Virus record (IMG/VR): IMGVR_UViG_3300028388_002689
Location: 1-29,552 of that record
Reading direction: 5' to 3' (one strand)
DNA from: a virus
Length of the DNA: 29,552 nucleotides
Positions within the stretch are counted from its first letter, which is position 1, and each line of letters opens with the position of its first letter. Shown piece after piece: positions 4,377 through 25,800 of this stretch. The notes under the pieces are model-generated. The model was not told the DNA's origin and did no database searches. It was given only the letters and a program-made list of their open reading frames with translations. The position numbers and the translations under genes were made by a program.

Positions 4377-5576
4377 ATGGCGGGAAGAAGGATAACGATC
4401 CTAGGGATGGGACCGAGTTCAAACGAACGCAAGCACGACATCGAGCGTTATTGCGTGAACACTGAGCTATGGGGTCTGAATAATGGATACCTGTTTTTCC
4501 CGCAACTTGACAAGAAGTGGAGCAGGTTCTTCGAGCTTCACAGTTACGACTATCTGAAAGGCTGGAAAAGCGGCGCGCCTTGCCATTTCTCTGCATTGCA
4601 TGGGCTAGATTGCGACGTTTACGCAACGCAACCACTGCCGATTATTGCAAAGCAGAAACTGGTTGACTTGGCCGCCATCGCGGATCACTTTGATTGCAAT
4701 TACTTTCTTGGTTCGCCGTCGCTCATGCTGATGGTTGCGCTATACGAGCACGATAACGGCCAGACAATCGACTATATACAATCATACGGGATTGATACAA
4801 GCGATCCTCAGCACGCGCAACAGCGCGCATCCTGGATGTTCTGGATTTCGCAGGCACACTCGCGCGGGATAAAACTTGGCGGAACAGCAACAGATTGTTT
4901 TGCAGAACGCGAAATTGATGAAGGCTTGATAGGTATGCGCGAGAATATTGGTGAGGAAATTGTGAAGCGTCGAGCGTCAAGAGCGCGCCCGCCCGTCATC
5001 GTAGCTGGGATGTTGCATTGCGGAACATCTATGCTGGCGCGTTGCTTGGCCGACGCAGGAATCAATATGGCGGGCAATAACGGCACAAACGACAATGCCG
5101 AGTGCATCGACATGATGAACGTAATACAAGCAGAATATCAGCGCCAAGGATTCAAGGCGCGCGAAGTGGACAACATGCTTGCTGCAGGTGAGGCTATCCC
5201 TAGCCCGACGCCAATACTTGCCAAGCATCTGCGCGAATACACGGCAACGCGGCGAACGGATGAGGCATGGGGGTTCAAGCATCCTTCGGCGTCAATGTTT
5301 GCGCCAGCATTTGCTGAGGTATTCCCAGAGGCAACGGTGATTCTTGCAACACGCAATGCAGAGGATCAGGCGGCATCGCGAGTTAGGCGCGGCATGGTGA
5401 GCCATGTAGGTGCAGGCGAAGCAGCATACCATGCGCGGCTGAAATACGCTTTGCAGAACTTTGCCAATGTTGTAATATACGACTACAACGGCAACCAAGA
5501 AGAAGAAAGCGAAAAACTAAGCAAGGCGTTAGGTGTCAAGGTTGACATCGGCGCGCGGTACATAACGAAGGAGTAA
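4377..5576 (+). CDS. Two-domain protein: Rossmann-like domain plus C-terminal sulfotransferase
   Basis: 399 residues; GGAGG lies at 4368-4372 before ATG 4377. Residues 5-180 start with a nucleotide-binding-like ILGMGPSSN turn and contain WGLNNGY, FFELHSYDYL and an LGSPSLMLMVALYE helix, resembling MptE/DUF115-type or phage glycan-related domains. Residues ~205-390 look like a sulfotransferase: 5'-phosphosulfate loop VAGMLHCGTSML (209-220), a WGFKHPS strand (298-304) and a 3'-phosphate region VILATRNAEDQAAS (321-334) carrying Arg326 and Ser334. Such enzymes move sulfate from PAPS to a hydroxyl or amine. It lies between tail terminator and major tail protein, a place normally reserved for structural genes. 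The target could be a virion or host-surface glycan; this is inference. Confidence 0.7.
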   Translation: MAGRRITILGMGPSSNERKHDIERYCVNTELWGLNNGYLFFPQLDKKWSRFFELHSYDYLKGWKSGAPCHFSALHGLDCDVYATQPLPIIAKQKLVDLAAIADHFDCNYFLGSPSLMLMVALYEHDNGQTIDYIQSYGIDTSDPQHAQQRASWMFWISQAHSRGIKLGGTATDCFAEREIDEGLIGMRENIGEEIVKRRASRARPPVIVAGMLHCGTSMLARCLADAGINMAGNNGTNDNAECIDMMNVIQAEYQRQGFKAREVDNMLAAGEAIPSPTPILAKHLREYTATRRTDEAWGFKHPSASMFAPAFAEVFPEATVILATRNAEDQAASRVRRGMVSHVGAGEAAYHARLKYALQNFANVVIYDYNGNQEEESEKLSKALGVKVDIGARYITKE

Positions 5577-19857: not shown

Positions 19858-20853
19858 ATGAAGTGTTTTTATCACAACGACCTAGACGGACATGCGGCTG
19901 GATTTTGCGTCCACGCATGGGCAGGGATACATGGGGCACACGACCAGAACAACTGCATGAAACCGATCAACTACGGGAAGCCGTTTCCATTTGAAGAGAT
20001 ATTGGCCAACGAGCAGGTTTGGATCGTCGATTATTCGATTGAGCCGGACGAGATGCGCAGGTTGCTGGAAATCACGCAGAACGTGTACTGGATCGACCAT
20101 CACAAAACAGCCATCGAGAAATATAGCGACTTTGACATCCAGATCCCCGGATACCGTTGTGACGGAGTTGCTGGGTGTGTCTTGACGTGGGAGTACATGC
20201 ATTGGCATTCAGGACGCGGGAGCAACCCAGTAATCCTCGAGGGTATGCCTGATACGCCAGAGATAGCAAAGGATTACCCTGTGCCAGAGATGATCAAGCT
20301 AGTTGGAGACAGGGATGTGTGGGCGTGGAAGTTTGGCGACACAACAAAGCATTTCTTTGCTGGGGCGCAGATGCACGACACGTCTCCTTCTTCAGAGTTC
20401 TGGTGGCGTTGCATGGAACACGAAACTAAGGACCTACCGTTGCCCAATACTGGAAACAGAGATGCCCGTATCCGAGGTGAAAAGTGGTGGGCACAGTTAT
20501 TGCATGACGGTGAAACTATTGAACGCTACAAGGCTCAAAGCGACAAGGGCGTCAATGAATCTATCGGGTACGAAGTAGAGTTTGAGGGCTATCGTTGCTT
20601 TGCCTGTAATCGTGCACGGGTAAGTTCAGATCGTTTTGGGGGCCTTGATGATCAATACGACATCCTGTTGCCGCATTACCACGACGGCAAACAATGGACG
20701 GTTAGCCTGTACTCGAAGACGGTGGATGTAAGCGAGATCGCAAAGGCAAGAGGCGGCGGGGGACATAAAGGGGCAGCAGGATTCCAGTGCTCATCCCTTC
20801 CGTGGATCGATAGCAAATCGACAGAACAGAGCAACGGAAAGGGGCAGGGATGA
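19858..20853 (+). CDS. DHH/DHHA1 family phosphoesterase
   Basis: 331 residues. Motifs in order: HNDLDGHAAG (6-15), VDYS (57-60), IDHHKT (79-84) carrying the DHH, then a long insert and the substrate-binding DHHA1 signature GGGGHKGAAGF (299-309). This family includes nanoRNases and cyclic-dinucleotide or linear-dinucleotide phosphodiesterases, which need Mn or Mg. All main metal-binding residues are present, so it is probably active. An AAGGAG lies at 19845-19850. It ends SNGKGQG through boundary repeat copy 3. The substrate is not known; short RNA recycling, or removal of nucleotide signals, fits an early phage gene. Confidence 0.8.
   Translation: MKCFYHNDLDGHAAGFCVHAWAGIHGAHDQNNCMKPINYGKPFPFEEILANEQVWIVDYSIEPDEMRRLLEITQNVYWIDHHKTAIEKYSDFDIQIPGYRCDGVAGCVLTWEYMHWHSGRGSNPVILEGMPDTPEIAKDYPVPEMIKLVGDRDVWAWKFGDTTKHFFAGAQMHDTSPSSEFWWRCMEHETKDLPLPNTGNRDARIRGEKWWAQLLHDGETIERYKAQSDKGVNESIGYEVEFEGYRCFACNRARVSSDRFGGLDDQYDILLPHYHDGKQWTVSLYSKTVDVSEIAKARGGGGHKGAAGFQCSSLPWIDSKSTEQSNGKGQG
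20836..20853 (+). repeat. Boundary repeat, copy 3
   Basis: GGAAAGGGGCAGGGATGA, identical to copy 1. It encodes the end of the DHH gene and the ATG (20850) of the next gene, and is preceded by GACAGAAC at 20820-20827. Confidence 0.9.
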
Positions 20854-22766: not shown

Positions 22767-22798
22767 ATTGTCGCGTAACACAAAGGAGGGAATAAAGA

Positions 22799-24322
22799 AT
22801 GTACGCCTACTTCATAAACGGAAAGCAGCACCAGCAACGCGAAAAGCCAACGCATAGCGATGGCGACTGGTGGCTGCATTTCGATGAGGCCGCGCACACC
22901 TACACAGACTCAAACGGCGTTCGATATATGAGCGCAACCGCGTTTGTTGCATCGCTACACGAACCGTTCAACGCTATGCAGGCCGCGATTGAGTGCGCTA
23001 GTAGTACCGCTGACAAGTGGCAAGGGCTGGACACGGCTGACGCTGTTCTTGGGCGTTGGGAAGATCAAGCCAACGAGGGCAGCAAGCTACATGCGGCGAT
23101 TGAGGAGATGATTTGCAAATGCTACAACCAAGGCGACAACCTATTATATCAGCCGCTAATTGAGCAGTTCTGCGATTGGGCTAACATATATCGATGCGAT
23201 AATAAGATGCGCTCAGAAGTGATCCTGTGGTCACGCTCGCTTTGTATTGCTGGAACGTGCGACATCCTAACTGCTTGCAAAGACGAGATAATACTTGACG
23301 ACGTAAAGACCTACTCCAAACTAGATTATGATCGCCAGACAAAGGCCGCAGAGCAGCTAACGCTATACGCCATGATGGTTGAGGAGATGACCGGACACGC
23401 GGCCCAGGTCGGCGGCATTGTGCTTTATGAAAACTACTACGAACTACGCAACAAGTGCGTGATGCGTTTTGTGGAGATGAAGGACAGGCGCGACCAAATG
23501 CAGCCCGCAATCTGGGCGCGCGAGTATAAAGTGCGGGCAAAAAAGGAGGGCGAAGAAATGGCGCTCAATATCACAAATGGAGCGGGCCACAAGCCTGCGC
23601 GAGTAGTTGTCTATGGTACGGAGGGCATCGGCAAGTCTACGTTTGCAAGCCGCTTCCCAAAGCCGGTATTCATTGACACGGAGGGTAGCACTGTCGAGAT
23701 GGACGTGCAGCGTTTGGAGACACCGCGCGATTGGCAGGCGGTTATCGACTTGTTGCGCGATGTGTACGCAGAGGATAGCGTGCCTTTTAAAACGCTTGTA
23801 ATTGACACAGTTGATTGGCTAGAAAAGGCATGCGCTGCGATGGTTGCAAAGTCAAAAGGCAAGAAAAACCTTGCCGACATCGGTTATGGCAAAGGCGAAC
23901 TTGCGCTTGCCGAAGAGTTCAAGCGCCTACTTGATGGACTTGACGCGATCCAATCAAAGCACAACTTACATATAGTGCTAACGGCGCATAGCTGGGTGAA
24001 ACACTTTGACCCGCCAGACATGCCAGAGGGTTTCGATCGCTACGAACTAAAGCTGACGAAGCACGTTGCGCCGCTTGTGCGTGAATGGTGCTCGATGCTC
24101 TTGTTTGCCAACTTCTCGAGCCAAGCGCGCAAGACTGACAGCGGCAAGGCCAAGGGCGTGGGCGACGGGAACACGCGCTATATCTACACGCAGCGCACCG
24201 ACGCATTTGACGCCAAGAACCGGCACAACATGGAGCCGGTGTATAGGTTCGCTTATTCGGAAATTGCGCCGTTTATCGAGGGCACGGAAACAGTAGCAGC
24301 AACAGAAGAAGGAGACAAGTAA
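22799..24322 (+). CDS. PD-(D/E)XK nuclease fused to Sak4-like RecA ATPase
   Basis: 507 residues. Part 1 (~1-250) is a RecB/Cas4-like nuclease: EGSKLHAAIEEM (93-104), AGTCDIL (151-157, D155), ILDDVKT (165-171, D168 and K170) and QLTLYAMMV (186-194). Part 2 (254-507) is a Sak4-like annealing ATPase: VVVYGTEGIGKSTFASRF with Walker A (273-281), IDTEGST, Walker B TLVIDTVDW (332-340), then VLTAHSWVKHFDP. An exonuclease and an annealing protein normally act as a pair in phage recombination; here one chain carries both. AGGAGGG precedes ATG 22799. An internal start gives the ATPase alone (see 23558). An SSB-like gene follows. Confidence 0.8.
   Translation: MYAYFINGKQHQQREKPTHSDGDWWLHFDEAAHTYTDSNGVRYMSATAFVASLHEPFNAMQAAIECASSTADKWQGLDTADAVLGRWEDQANEGSKLHAAIEEMICKCYNQGDNLLYQPLIEQFCDWANIYRCDNKMRSEVILWSRSLCIAGTCDILTACKDEIILDDVKTYSKLDYDRQTKAAEQLTLYAMMVEEMTGHAAQVGGIVLYENYYELRNKCVMRFVEMKDRRDQMQPAIWAREYKVRAKKEGEEMALNITNGAGHKPARVVVYGTEGIGKSTFASRFPKPVFIDTEGSTVEMDVQRLETPRDWQAVIDLLRDVYAEDSVPFKTLVIDTVDWLEKACAAMVAKSKGKKNLADIGYGKGELALAEEFKRLLDGLDAIQSKHNLHIVLTAHSWVKHFDPPDMPEGFDRYELKLTKHVAPLVREWCSMLLFANFSSQARKTDSGKAKGVGDGNTRYIYTQRTDAFDAKNRHNMEPVYRFAYSEIAPFIEGTETVAATEEGDK
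23558..24322 (+). CDS. Sak4-like ATPase alone, from internal start
   Basis: ATG at 23558 is in frame with the fusion and preceded by AAGGAGG (23543-23549) at ideal distance. It would give 254 residues (MALNITNGAGHKPARVVVYGTEG...), about the normal length of stand-alone Sak4-like proteins, which begin just before the Walker A strand. The ribosome site looks like an ancestral gene start kept after the nuclease lost its stop, or a device to make extra ATPase. Confidence 0.65.
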   Translation: MALNITNGAGHKPARVVVYGTEGIGKSTFASRFPKPVFIDTEGSTVEMDVQRLETPRDWQAVIDLLRDVYAEDSVPFKTLVIDTVDWLEKACAAMVAKSKGKKNLADIGYGKGELALAEEFKRLLDGLDAIQSKHNLHIVLTAHSWVKHFDPPDMPEGFDRYELKLTKHVAPLVREWCSMLLFANFSSQARKTDSGKAKGVGDGNTRYIYTQRTDAFDAKNRHNMEPVYRFAYSEIAPFIEGTETVAATEEGDK

Positions 24323-24323
24323 C

Positions 24324-24791
24324 ATGCCGGAGGAAACAATGAAAATCACAGACATAACAGAGGGCATCAACGGCCTTGTGTCGTTCGTATGTTTCGACAT
24401 GGTGGGCCAGAAAAATACGCCGACAATCAAGGTTGTCTGTACCGATGAAGACGGGCGCACAGCGCGCGGCGATATCTGGTGCAGCCTAAAAAACCTTGAC
24501 CGCGCCTGCGAAACACTGAAGGCGCTTGGAGTACCTGGGCGCGACAACCGCGAGATCATCGCTAACGTAGAGGCACACTTGCAGGACGTGGAATGCACGT
24601 TTGATACCGAGGAAAGCCGCGACGGGCAGTATATCAACGCCGTGAGCATTAGAGCGCGCGGTGATGATAAGCCAACCGGCGGTTTTGGCGTATCGCATGA
24701 CGCTTTTACGGCGGCCATCTTCGGCGCGGCACCAGTGCCGTCAAGCAGCAACAAAGAAACGAAAGCGGCATCAGATGACTTTCCTTACTAA
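24324..24791 (+). CDS. Single-stranded DNA-binding protein-like
   Basis: 155 residues. ATG 24324 has AAGGAG at 24309-24314; an in-frame ATG at 24339 follows GGAGG (24329-24333) and is an alternative start (MKITDITEGIN). A beta-rich core (GLVSFVCFDMVGQKNTPTIKVVCTDEDGRTARGDIWCSL) is followed by a Ser/Lys-rich linker and an acidic-aromatic tip SDDFPY, the hallmark of SSB proteins, whose last residues recruit partners. Position after the Sak4-like gene fits. It is not a standard E. coli-type SSB, but a phage version is likely. Confidence 0.6.
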   Translation: MPEETMKITDITEGINGLVSFVCFDMVGQKNTPTIKVVCTDEDGRTARGDIWCSLKNLDRACETLKALGVPGRDNREIIANVEAHLQDVECTFDTEESRDGQYINAVSIRARGDDKPTGGFGVSHDAFTAAIFGAAPVPSSSNKETKAASDDFPY

Positions 24792-25449: not shown

Positions 25450-25800
25450 ATGAACAAGGTATGCGTACAATGCGGTGCTGAGTTTGATGCGCGCGGCAGG
25501 AGTAAAACTTGCGGGAAGAAGTGTGGGCGTGAGCGTGAGCGTGAGCGTGATCGTGAGTGGAAGCGTGAGCGATATGCAACAGACCCAGCGTATAGGGAGC
25601 GAAAGCGTGAGCGTTATCGTGAGCGATATGCAACAGACCCAGCGTATAGGGAGCGAAGGCGTGAGCGGAATCGTGAGCTATATGCAACAGACGCAGTGTA
25701 TAGGGAGCGTGTGCGTGAGCGTGCGCTTGAGCGTCACTATAACAAATCCAACGCATGCGACTTCTTCCGCACACTAGCAATGGCAGACGCCATAAAGTAA
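25450..25800 (+). CDS. Zinc-knuckle protein with Arg/Glu tandem repeats
   Basis: 116 residues. The N-terminus has CVQCGAEFDARGRSKTCGKKC (C5, C8, C21, C25), a zinc knuckle seen in phage proteins and HNH-type genes. The middle consists of repeats RERYATDPAYRERKRERYR, RERYATDPAYRERRRERNR and RELYATDAVYRERVRERAL, three 18-residue units encoded by 54-base DNA repeats. Highly charged helix; likely binds nucleic acid. No HNH site follows. Confidence 0.6.
   Translation: MNKVCVQCGAEFDARGRSKTCGKKCGRERERERDREWKRERYATDPAYRERKRERYRERYATDPAYRERRRERNRELYATDAVYRERVRERALERHYNKSNACDFFRTLAMADAIK
25571..25732 (+). repeat. Three 54-base tandem repeats
   Basis: Units begin near 25571, 25625 and 25679 with ATATGCAACAGAC.CAG.GTATAGGGAGCG. 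The first two are nearly identical; the third has diverged more. GTGAGC hexamers also repeat at 25528-25560. They encode the YATDPAYRER helix repeats. Confidence 0.85.

Follow-up and report, generated by a model that had tools for sequence, protein, structure and literature searches.

The window analysed here, the whole 29,552-nucleotide stretch of a 29.5-kb viral record, contains a fused gene on the plus strand (22799..24322) that opens with ATG and extends for 507 aa without an internal stop. From profile matches and codon usage, the gene is predicted to encode an N-terminal PD-(D/E)XK exonuclease and a C-terminal RecA-like annealing ATPase of the Sak4 type. The Shine-Dalgarno (SD) sequence of the full-length product, AAGGAGG, lies at 22783..22789 (plus strand; -11.8 kcal/mol). 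A second AAGGAGG (23543..23549, plus strand) is located inside the nuclease-coding part, at its 3' end, and precedes an in-frame ATG at codon 254 (23558..23560, plus strand), the predicted start of a free 254-aa Sak4. The preliminary description had placed a nuclease and a Sak4-like ATPase in one frame, with this internal ribosome site at the exact domain border, and both statements hold: the open reading frame is uninterrupted, its halves match phrog_298 and phrog_124/AAA_24, respectively, and the internal ATG aligns with the starts of unfused Sak4 proteins.

The N-terminal half (residues 1-253; 22799..23557, plus strand) is a predicted PD-(D/E)XK exonuclease of the phrog_298 type with intact catalytic motif residues, as judged from a profile search, a 28-row alignment and Foldseek. 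In frame 0, residues 10-244 match the phrog_298 exonuclease profile with an E value of 2e-20, and the nuclease motif residues H98, E102, E140, D155, D168-x-K170 and Q186-x3-Y190 are all retained. The motif residues, including H98, E140, D155, D168-x-K170, Q186 and Y190, are invariant in the alignment. An AlphaFold model of the separately modelled nuclease half is of moderate quality (mean pLDDT 67), and a Foldseek comparison of this model with the PDB matched human MGME1, Cas4 and E. coli RecE.

The C-terminal half (residues 254-507) is a predicted Sak4-type annealing ATPase, with the Sak4/AAA_24 RecA-like domain encoded at 23558..24319 (plus strand). Residues 252-484 match the phrog_124 Sak4-like annealing protein (E 1.2e-44), and residues 266-476 match Pfam AAA_24 (E 2e-46; 158.5 bits against a cut-off of 27). 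The Sak4 motifs are intact and comprise the Walker A sequence YGTEGIGKST at residues 272-281 (23612..23641, plus strand) and the Walker B Asp336 (23804-23806, plus strand), so that profile and Walker motifs agree on the membership of the family. Only the Sak4 half was used from the full-length AlphaFold run, in which the nuclease rows were misaligned onto Sak4; between about residues 271 and 490 most pLDDT values of the ATPase block exceed 90, and the top fold match of this half in the PDB is the phage Sak4 structure 8rc5.

Directly downstream of the fused gene lies a candidate SSB-like gene (24324..24791, plus strand) whose 155-aa product has an acidic DDFPY C-terminus. This protein has no Pfam, PHROG or phage-record match and is probably a highly diverged SSB. 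As many as 80% of sak4 genes have an SSB partner, whose acidic tail, NDYPPF, stimulates Sak4 (PMC5928155). Other parts of the window contain features of separate interest. The open reading frame at 25450-25800 begins with a zinc-finger-like CxxC..C start, which is followed by 3.2 copies of a 54-nt repeat (25552-25722; 88% matches) encoding RERYATDPAYRERKRERY-like units. A sulfotransferase-family protein (Sulfotransfer_3/_4; 4377-5576) is an unusual cargo amid phage structural genes, and a DHH phosphoesterase-like phage protein of phrog_4771 (E 1e-38) is encoded at 19858-20853. The major head protein (phrog_212; 757-1713) has a sole phage-record relative, Akkermansia phage Chantilly, at 30% identity, which hints at a Verrucomicrobiota host.

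Is the single frame across the junction a property of the gene or of the record? The junction is known from one metagenomic record only, and a frame-2 TAA at 23527, shortly 5' of the internal SD, lies near a possible end of an unfused nuclease. A one-base error was therefore considered, in which a sequencing or assembly indel upstream of this TAA joined a nuclease gene to a normal Sak4 gene. The position of the TAA suits such an error, given that homologous nucleases mostly stop at about residue 237, and the homology model gives no frame decision past about residue 203. However, frame 0 has the best codon-usage log-odds in each of the 45-nt segments between 23339 and 23743. Frame 0 scores +16.9 bits over 23410-23527, compared with -23.3 and -20.9 bits for the other frames, and +4.3 over 23527-23557, compared with -4.6 and -5.4. 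Moreover, the frame-0 phrog_298 match continues to residue 244, and the longest homopolymer within the fused gene, A6 at 23539, is downstream of 23527. Because codon usage favours frame 0 across the whole junction, the fusion is taken as real, and a frameshift in the record is very improbable.

The internal ribosome site has the anatomy of a gene start. The spacer between AAGGAGG and ATG 23558 is 8 nt long, and the anti-SD duplex energy at this ATG (-11.8 kcal/mol) is the top value among the 379 internal ATGs of the window in any frame, tying with the best annotated start, which is that of the same gene at 22799. The window contains three copies of the arrangement AAGGAGG-N(4-10)-ATG where 0.41 would be expected, and the two copies besides the internal one precede the start codons of open reading frames; by its sequence, the internal AAGGAGG-ATG is not a chance occurrence as a start site. 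The 60-nt mRNA segment around ATG 23558 has little predicted structure (-8.1, compared with a gene mean of -13.1 and -7.5 at true starts) and ranks 49th of 468. When Sak4 proteins are aligned, M254 falls where the unfused ones naturally begin; most of these have their first residue no more than 10 positions from this point. The ATG sits 18 codons before Walker A. A strong SD, proper spacing and an in-frame ATG at the domain border thus coincide in the window gene. The codons of this gene alone are no proof of selection, since the peptide RAKKEGEE gives a strong SD with most synonymous codons (synonymous-codon test, p = 0.41).

The two activities are normally encoded by separate genes, as the preliminary description had stated. 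Among 185 Sak4 open reading frames in the fetched loci, a nuclease fusion is found in the window frame only (0/184 others), and separate exonuclease genes adjoin Sak4 in many loci. Three layouts are common among relatives: Sak4 is preceded by a gene for an SbcC-like ATPase (in Bacillota phages), preceded by an exonuclease gene of the Cas4-like or DUF3799/ExoVIII type, or followed by an exonuclease gene. In a set of Verrucomicrobiota prophage-like loci (L291, L294, L295, L297, L301, L302, L314 and L315), only a short gap separates Sak4 from the exonuclease gene of the DUF3799/ExoVIII type that immediately precedes it, which is the gene order of the window in unfused form. Long Verrucomicrobiota Sak4 frames were also considered as nuclease fusions and were rejected, as they represent inteins in Walker A or a spurious upstream frame. 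The intein-like insertion, of ~330 residues and ending in HN, splits the GK/ST of Walker A in Verrucomicrobiota Sak4 genes (L315, 2236-4002, minus strand; L316, 1666-3471, plus strand; L317, 2975-4372, minus strand; L319, 1-1582, minus strand).

A second phrog_298-Sak4 fusion was not found by tblastn of phage records, by IMG/VR scans with full, half and profile queries, in genome contigs, in 388 genomes of one phylum, that of a Verrucomicrobiota locus, or with other window genes used as bait. This result would fit a recent accidental join, in which a single substitution removed an in-frame stop between two adjacent or overlapping genes; the original Sak4 start would remain in use, and the fused chain would be a by-product of reading on, tolerated but not selected as a design. 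Adjacent or overlapping exonuclease-Sak4 gene pairs do occur, the ribosome-binding site and ATG 23558 resemble an untouched gene start, and the codons AAA, AAG, GAG, GAA and GAA just 5' of this ATG are one change from a stop. However, frame-0 codon usage persists throughout 23410-23557, and the tail preceding the ATG is therefore not fresh intergenic sequence. Furthermore, the fusion architecture can be stable, as it spans phrog_8097 proteins down to about 40% identity. A recent accidental join is an unlikely origin of the window gene, although it deserves more weight than a frameshift in the record.

Fusion of a nuclease to Sak4 is, as such, already known from phrog_8097. This family, annotated 'exonuclease', is a PDDEXK_1-AAA_24 fusion with the same nuclease-Sak4 order as the window gene, and it is carried by Paenibacillus phage Wanderer (gp51, YP_010080272.1, with an SSB gene next), Staphylococcus phage PI-Sepi-HH2 (QPB07656.1) and many IMG/VR contigs. 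The window gene has the same architecture and, judged by profile, is not a member: it matches the phrog_8097 profile in its Sak4 part only (residues 265-385, E 1.2e-4), and its nuclease half is unmatched. Because only the ATPase half matches phrog_8097 and this half shares 41-46% identity with unfused phrog_124 proteins, the window fusion appears to be an event separate from that of phrog_8097.

The internal start of phrog_8097 is conserved at the nucleotide level. The search found 263 relatives, of which 80 were read. The preliminary description had proposed to look among relatives for a stop between the domains; the collections searched yielded nothing closely related to the window gene, and in phrog_8097 a single frame is open across the border in 84/84 loci read (71 distinct proteins). 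Each of the 71 distinct genes has an in-frame ATG at a distance of exactly 21 codons from the Walker A downstream, and in 56 of them this ATG outranks every other internal start in the frame. Across 41 representatives with less than 80% identity, this ATG forms the sole invariant Met column, the next best being conserved in 38/41. The SD-forming Gly codon next to the border is GGA or GGG in 49/51 genes, compared with 25/115 other Lys-Gly pairs (Fisher 7e-21) and 42% of all other Gly codons. The entropy of this codon (0.87) is the lowest of 14 conserved Gly columns, the others of which range from 1.13 to 1.95 under the same ancestry. Synonymous resampling gave a combined Z of -7.4, against an average of +0.07 for 419 control Mets; the per-gene p value is below 0.05 in 3/41 genes, the signal being cumulative over members that share ancestry. 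In a +/-150-nt profile, mean mRNA structure is weakest exactly at the border ATG, in part owing to a lower local GC content (0.33 vs 0.40). A few members, such as L303 and L401, have weak SDs.

These data also bear on whether the internal site serves translation at all. The fused protein could be the sole product, with the Met and the SD-like sequence kept for protein or ribosome-pausing reasons, since most synonymous spellings of the window peptide KKEGEE resemble an SD and some residues of the protein, such as G, M and L-P, are conserved at the phrog_8097 border. However, the 41 diverged phrog_8097 genes combine, at a single point, synonymous conservation, a sole invariant Met, a suitable distance from SD to ATG and weak mRNA structure, which makes a fusion-only gene a highly improbable explanation. 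The preliminary description had weighed a recent stop loss against a real design. The latter gains strong indirect support from phrog_8097, which keeps the same internal start at the nucleotide level; taken alone, the window gene, with a synonymous test that is not significant and no close relative found, does not decide between the two. The conserved start in phrog_8097 is the strongest and most general result of this study, and the window gene is probably a second, independent case.

Thus, we propose that the window gene is a two-product recombination gene that specifies both a fused chain and a free Sak4 ATPase, an interpretation that we consider fairly likely. Both products are probably made, because the window gene keeps a strong internal start and phrog_8097 has a conserved start in the same place in 71 genes. 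More generally, phrog_8097-like fusion genes with an internal start probably make both the fused protein and the free ATPase. Initiation at ATG 22799 would give the 507-aa exonuclease-Sak4 chain, in which the Cas4/RecE/MGME1-like PD-(D/E)XK nuclease would cut back DNA ends and deliver single strands to the covalently attached RecA-like annealing ATPase. The internal AAGGAGG would drive separate initiation at ATG 23558. If free Sak4 is made in this way, annealing subunits would exceed nuclease subunits and could join the fusion on single-stranded DNA, and the SSB-like protein from the next gene may act as a cofactor alongside the fusion and free Sak4. The sequences show the anatomy of the gene and, in phrog_8097, the conserved start; the making of two products, their ratio, their co-assembly and the feeding of the ATPase by the nuclease we infer. 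We also lean, somewhat less firmly than for the two-product gene itself, toward the view that exonuclease-annealase fusions arose at least twice, each keeping a dedicated internal start, and that they represent a recurrent, selected way of fixing nuclease:annealase stoichiometry.

How a nuclease hands DNA over to an annealing protein, and in what ratio the two are needed, is a lasting question for exo/SSAP pairs such as lambda Exo-Beta and RecE-RecT, and efficient recombineering needs matched pairs. If the free annealer is indeed made from it as well, a natural fusion would offer a simple, testable answer on both hand-over and ratio, and the fusion gene is a compact candidate recombineering part for Gram-positive bacteria. 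In addition, more than 70 public phage sequences that are annotated or read as one 'exonuclease' would encode two proteins. No description of the internal-start signature of nuclease-Sak4 fusions was found in the literature searched; a 2021 Firmicutes survey of annealing proteins, including Sak4, contains neither 'fusion', 'fused' nor 'bifunctional' and does not mention dual translation (PMC8093625).

The closest architectural parallel is phrog_8097, which shares with the window gene an N-terminal PD-(D/E)XK nuclease, a C-terminal AAA_24/Sak4 domain and an in-frame border ATG with an SD. The phrog_8097 nuclease, however, belongs to another lineage (PDDEXK_1/Cas4-like with C-terminal cysteines), its Sak4 is a distant branch, and the border ATG precedes Walker A by 21 codons rather than 18. 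The phrog_8097 records are annotated 'exonuclease', 'NTP-binding protein' or hypothetical and leave the dual start unmentioned. Sak4 annealing proteins, such as phage HK620 Sak4 (AAA_24, phrog_124), have in common with the window gene the RecA-like core, the Walker motifs and an SSB-like neighbour with an acidic tail, but Sak4 is normally a free-standing gene, whereas in the window it is translationally fused to the nuclease. Likewise, phrog_298 exonucleases of the RecE/Cas4/MGME1 fold resemble the window nuclease in catalytic motif residues and fold, but the homologues found are free-standing proteins of 216-230 aa. The use of one gene for two in-frame products also has precedents. T7 gene 4 yields its 63- and 56-kDa primase-helicase proteins in one frame by means of an internal start. 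The 56-kDa component is mentioned in PMC9198812, and in cas8/cas11 an internal in-frame start yields a second product, Cas11b (PMC11899642). The enzymes of T7 gene 4 and cas8/cas11 are unrelated to those described here, and the internal site of the window gene differs in that it is predicted from sequence to divide two whole enzyme domains.
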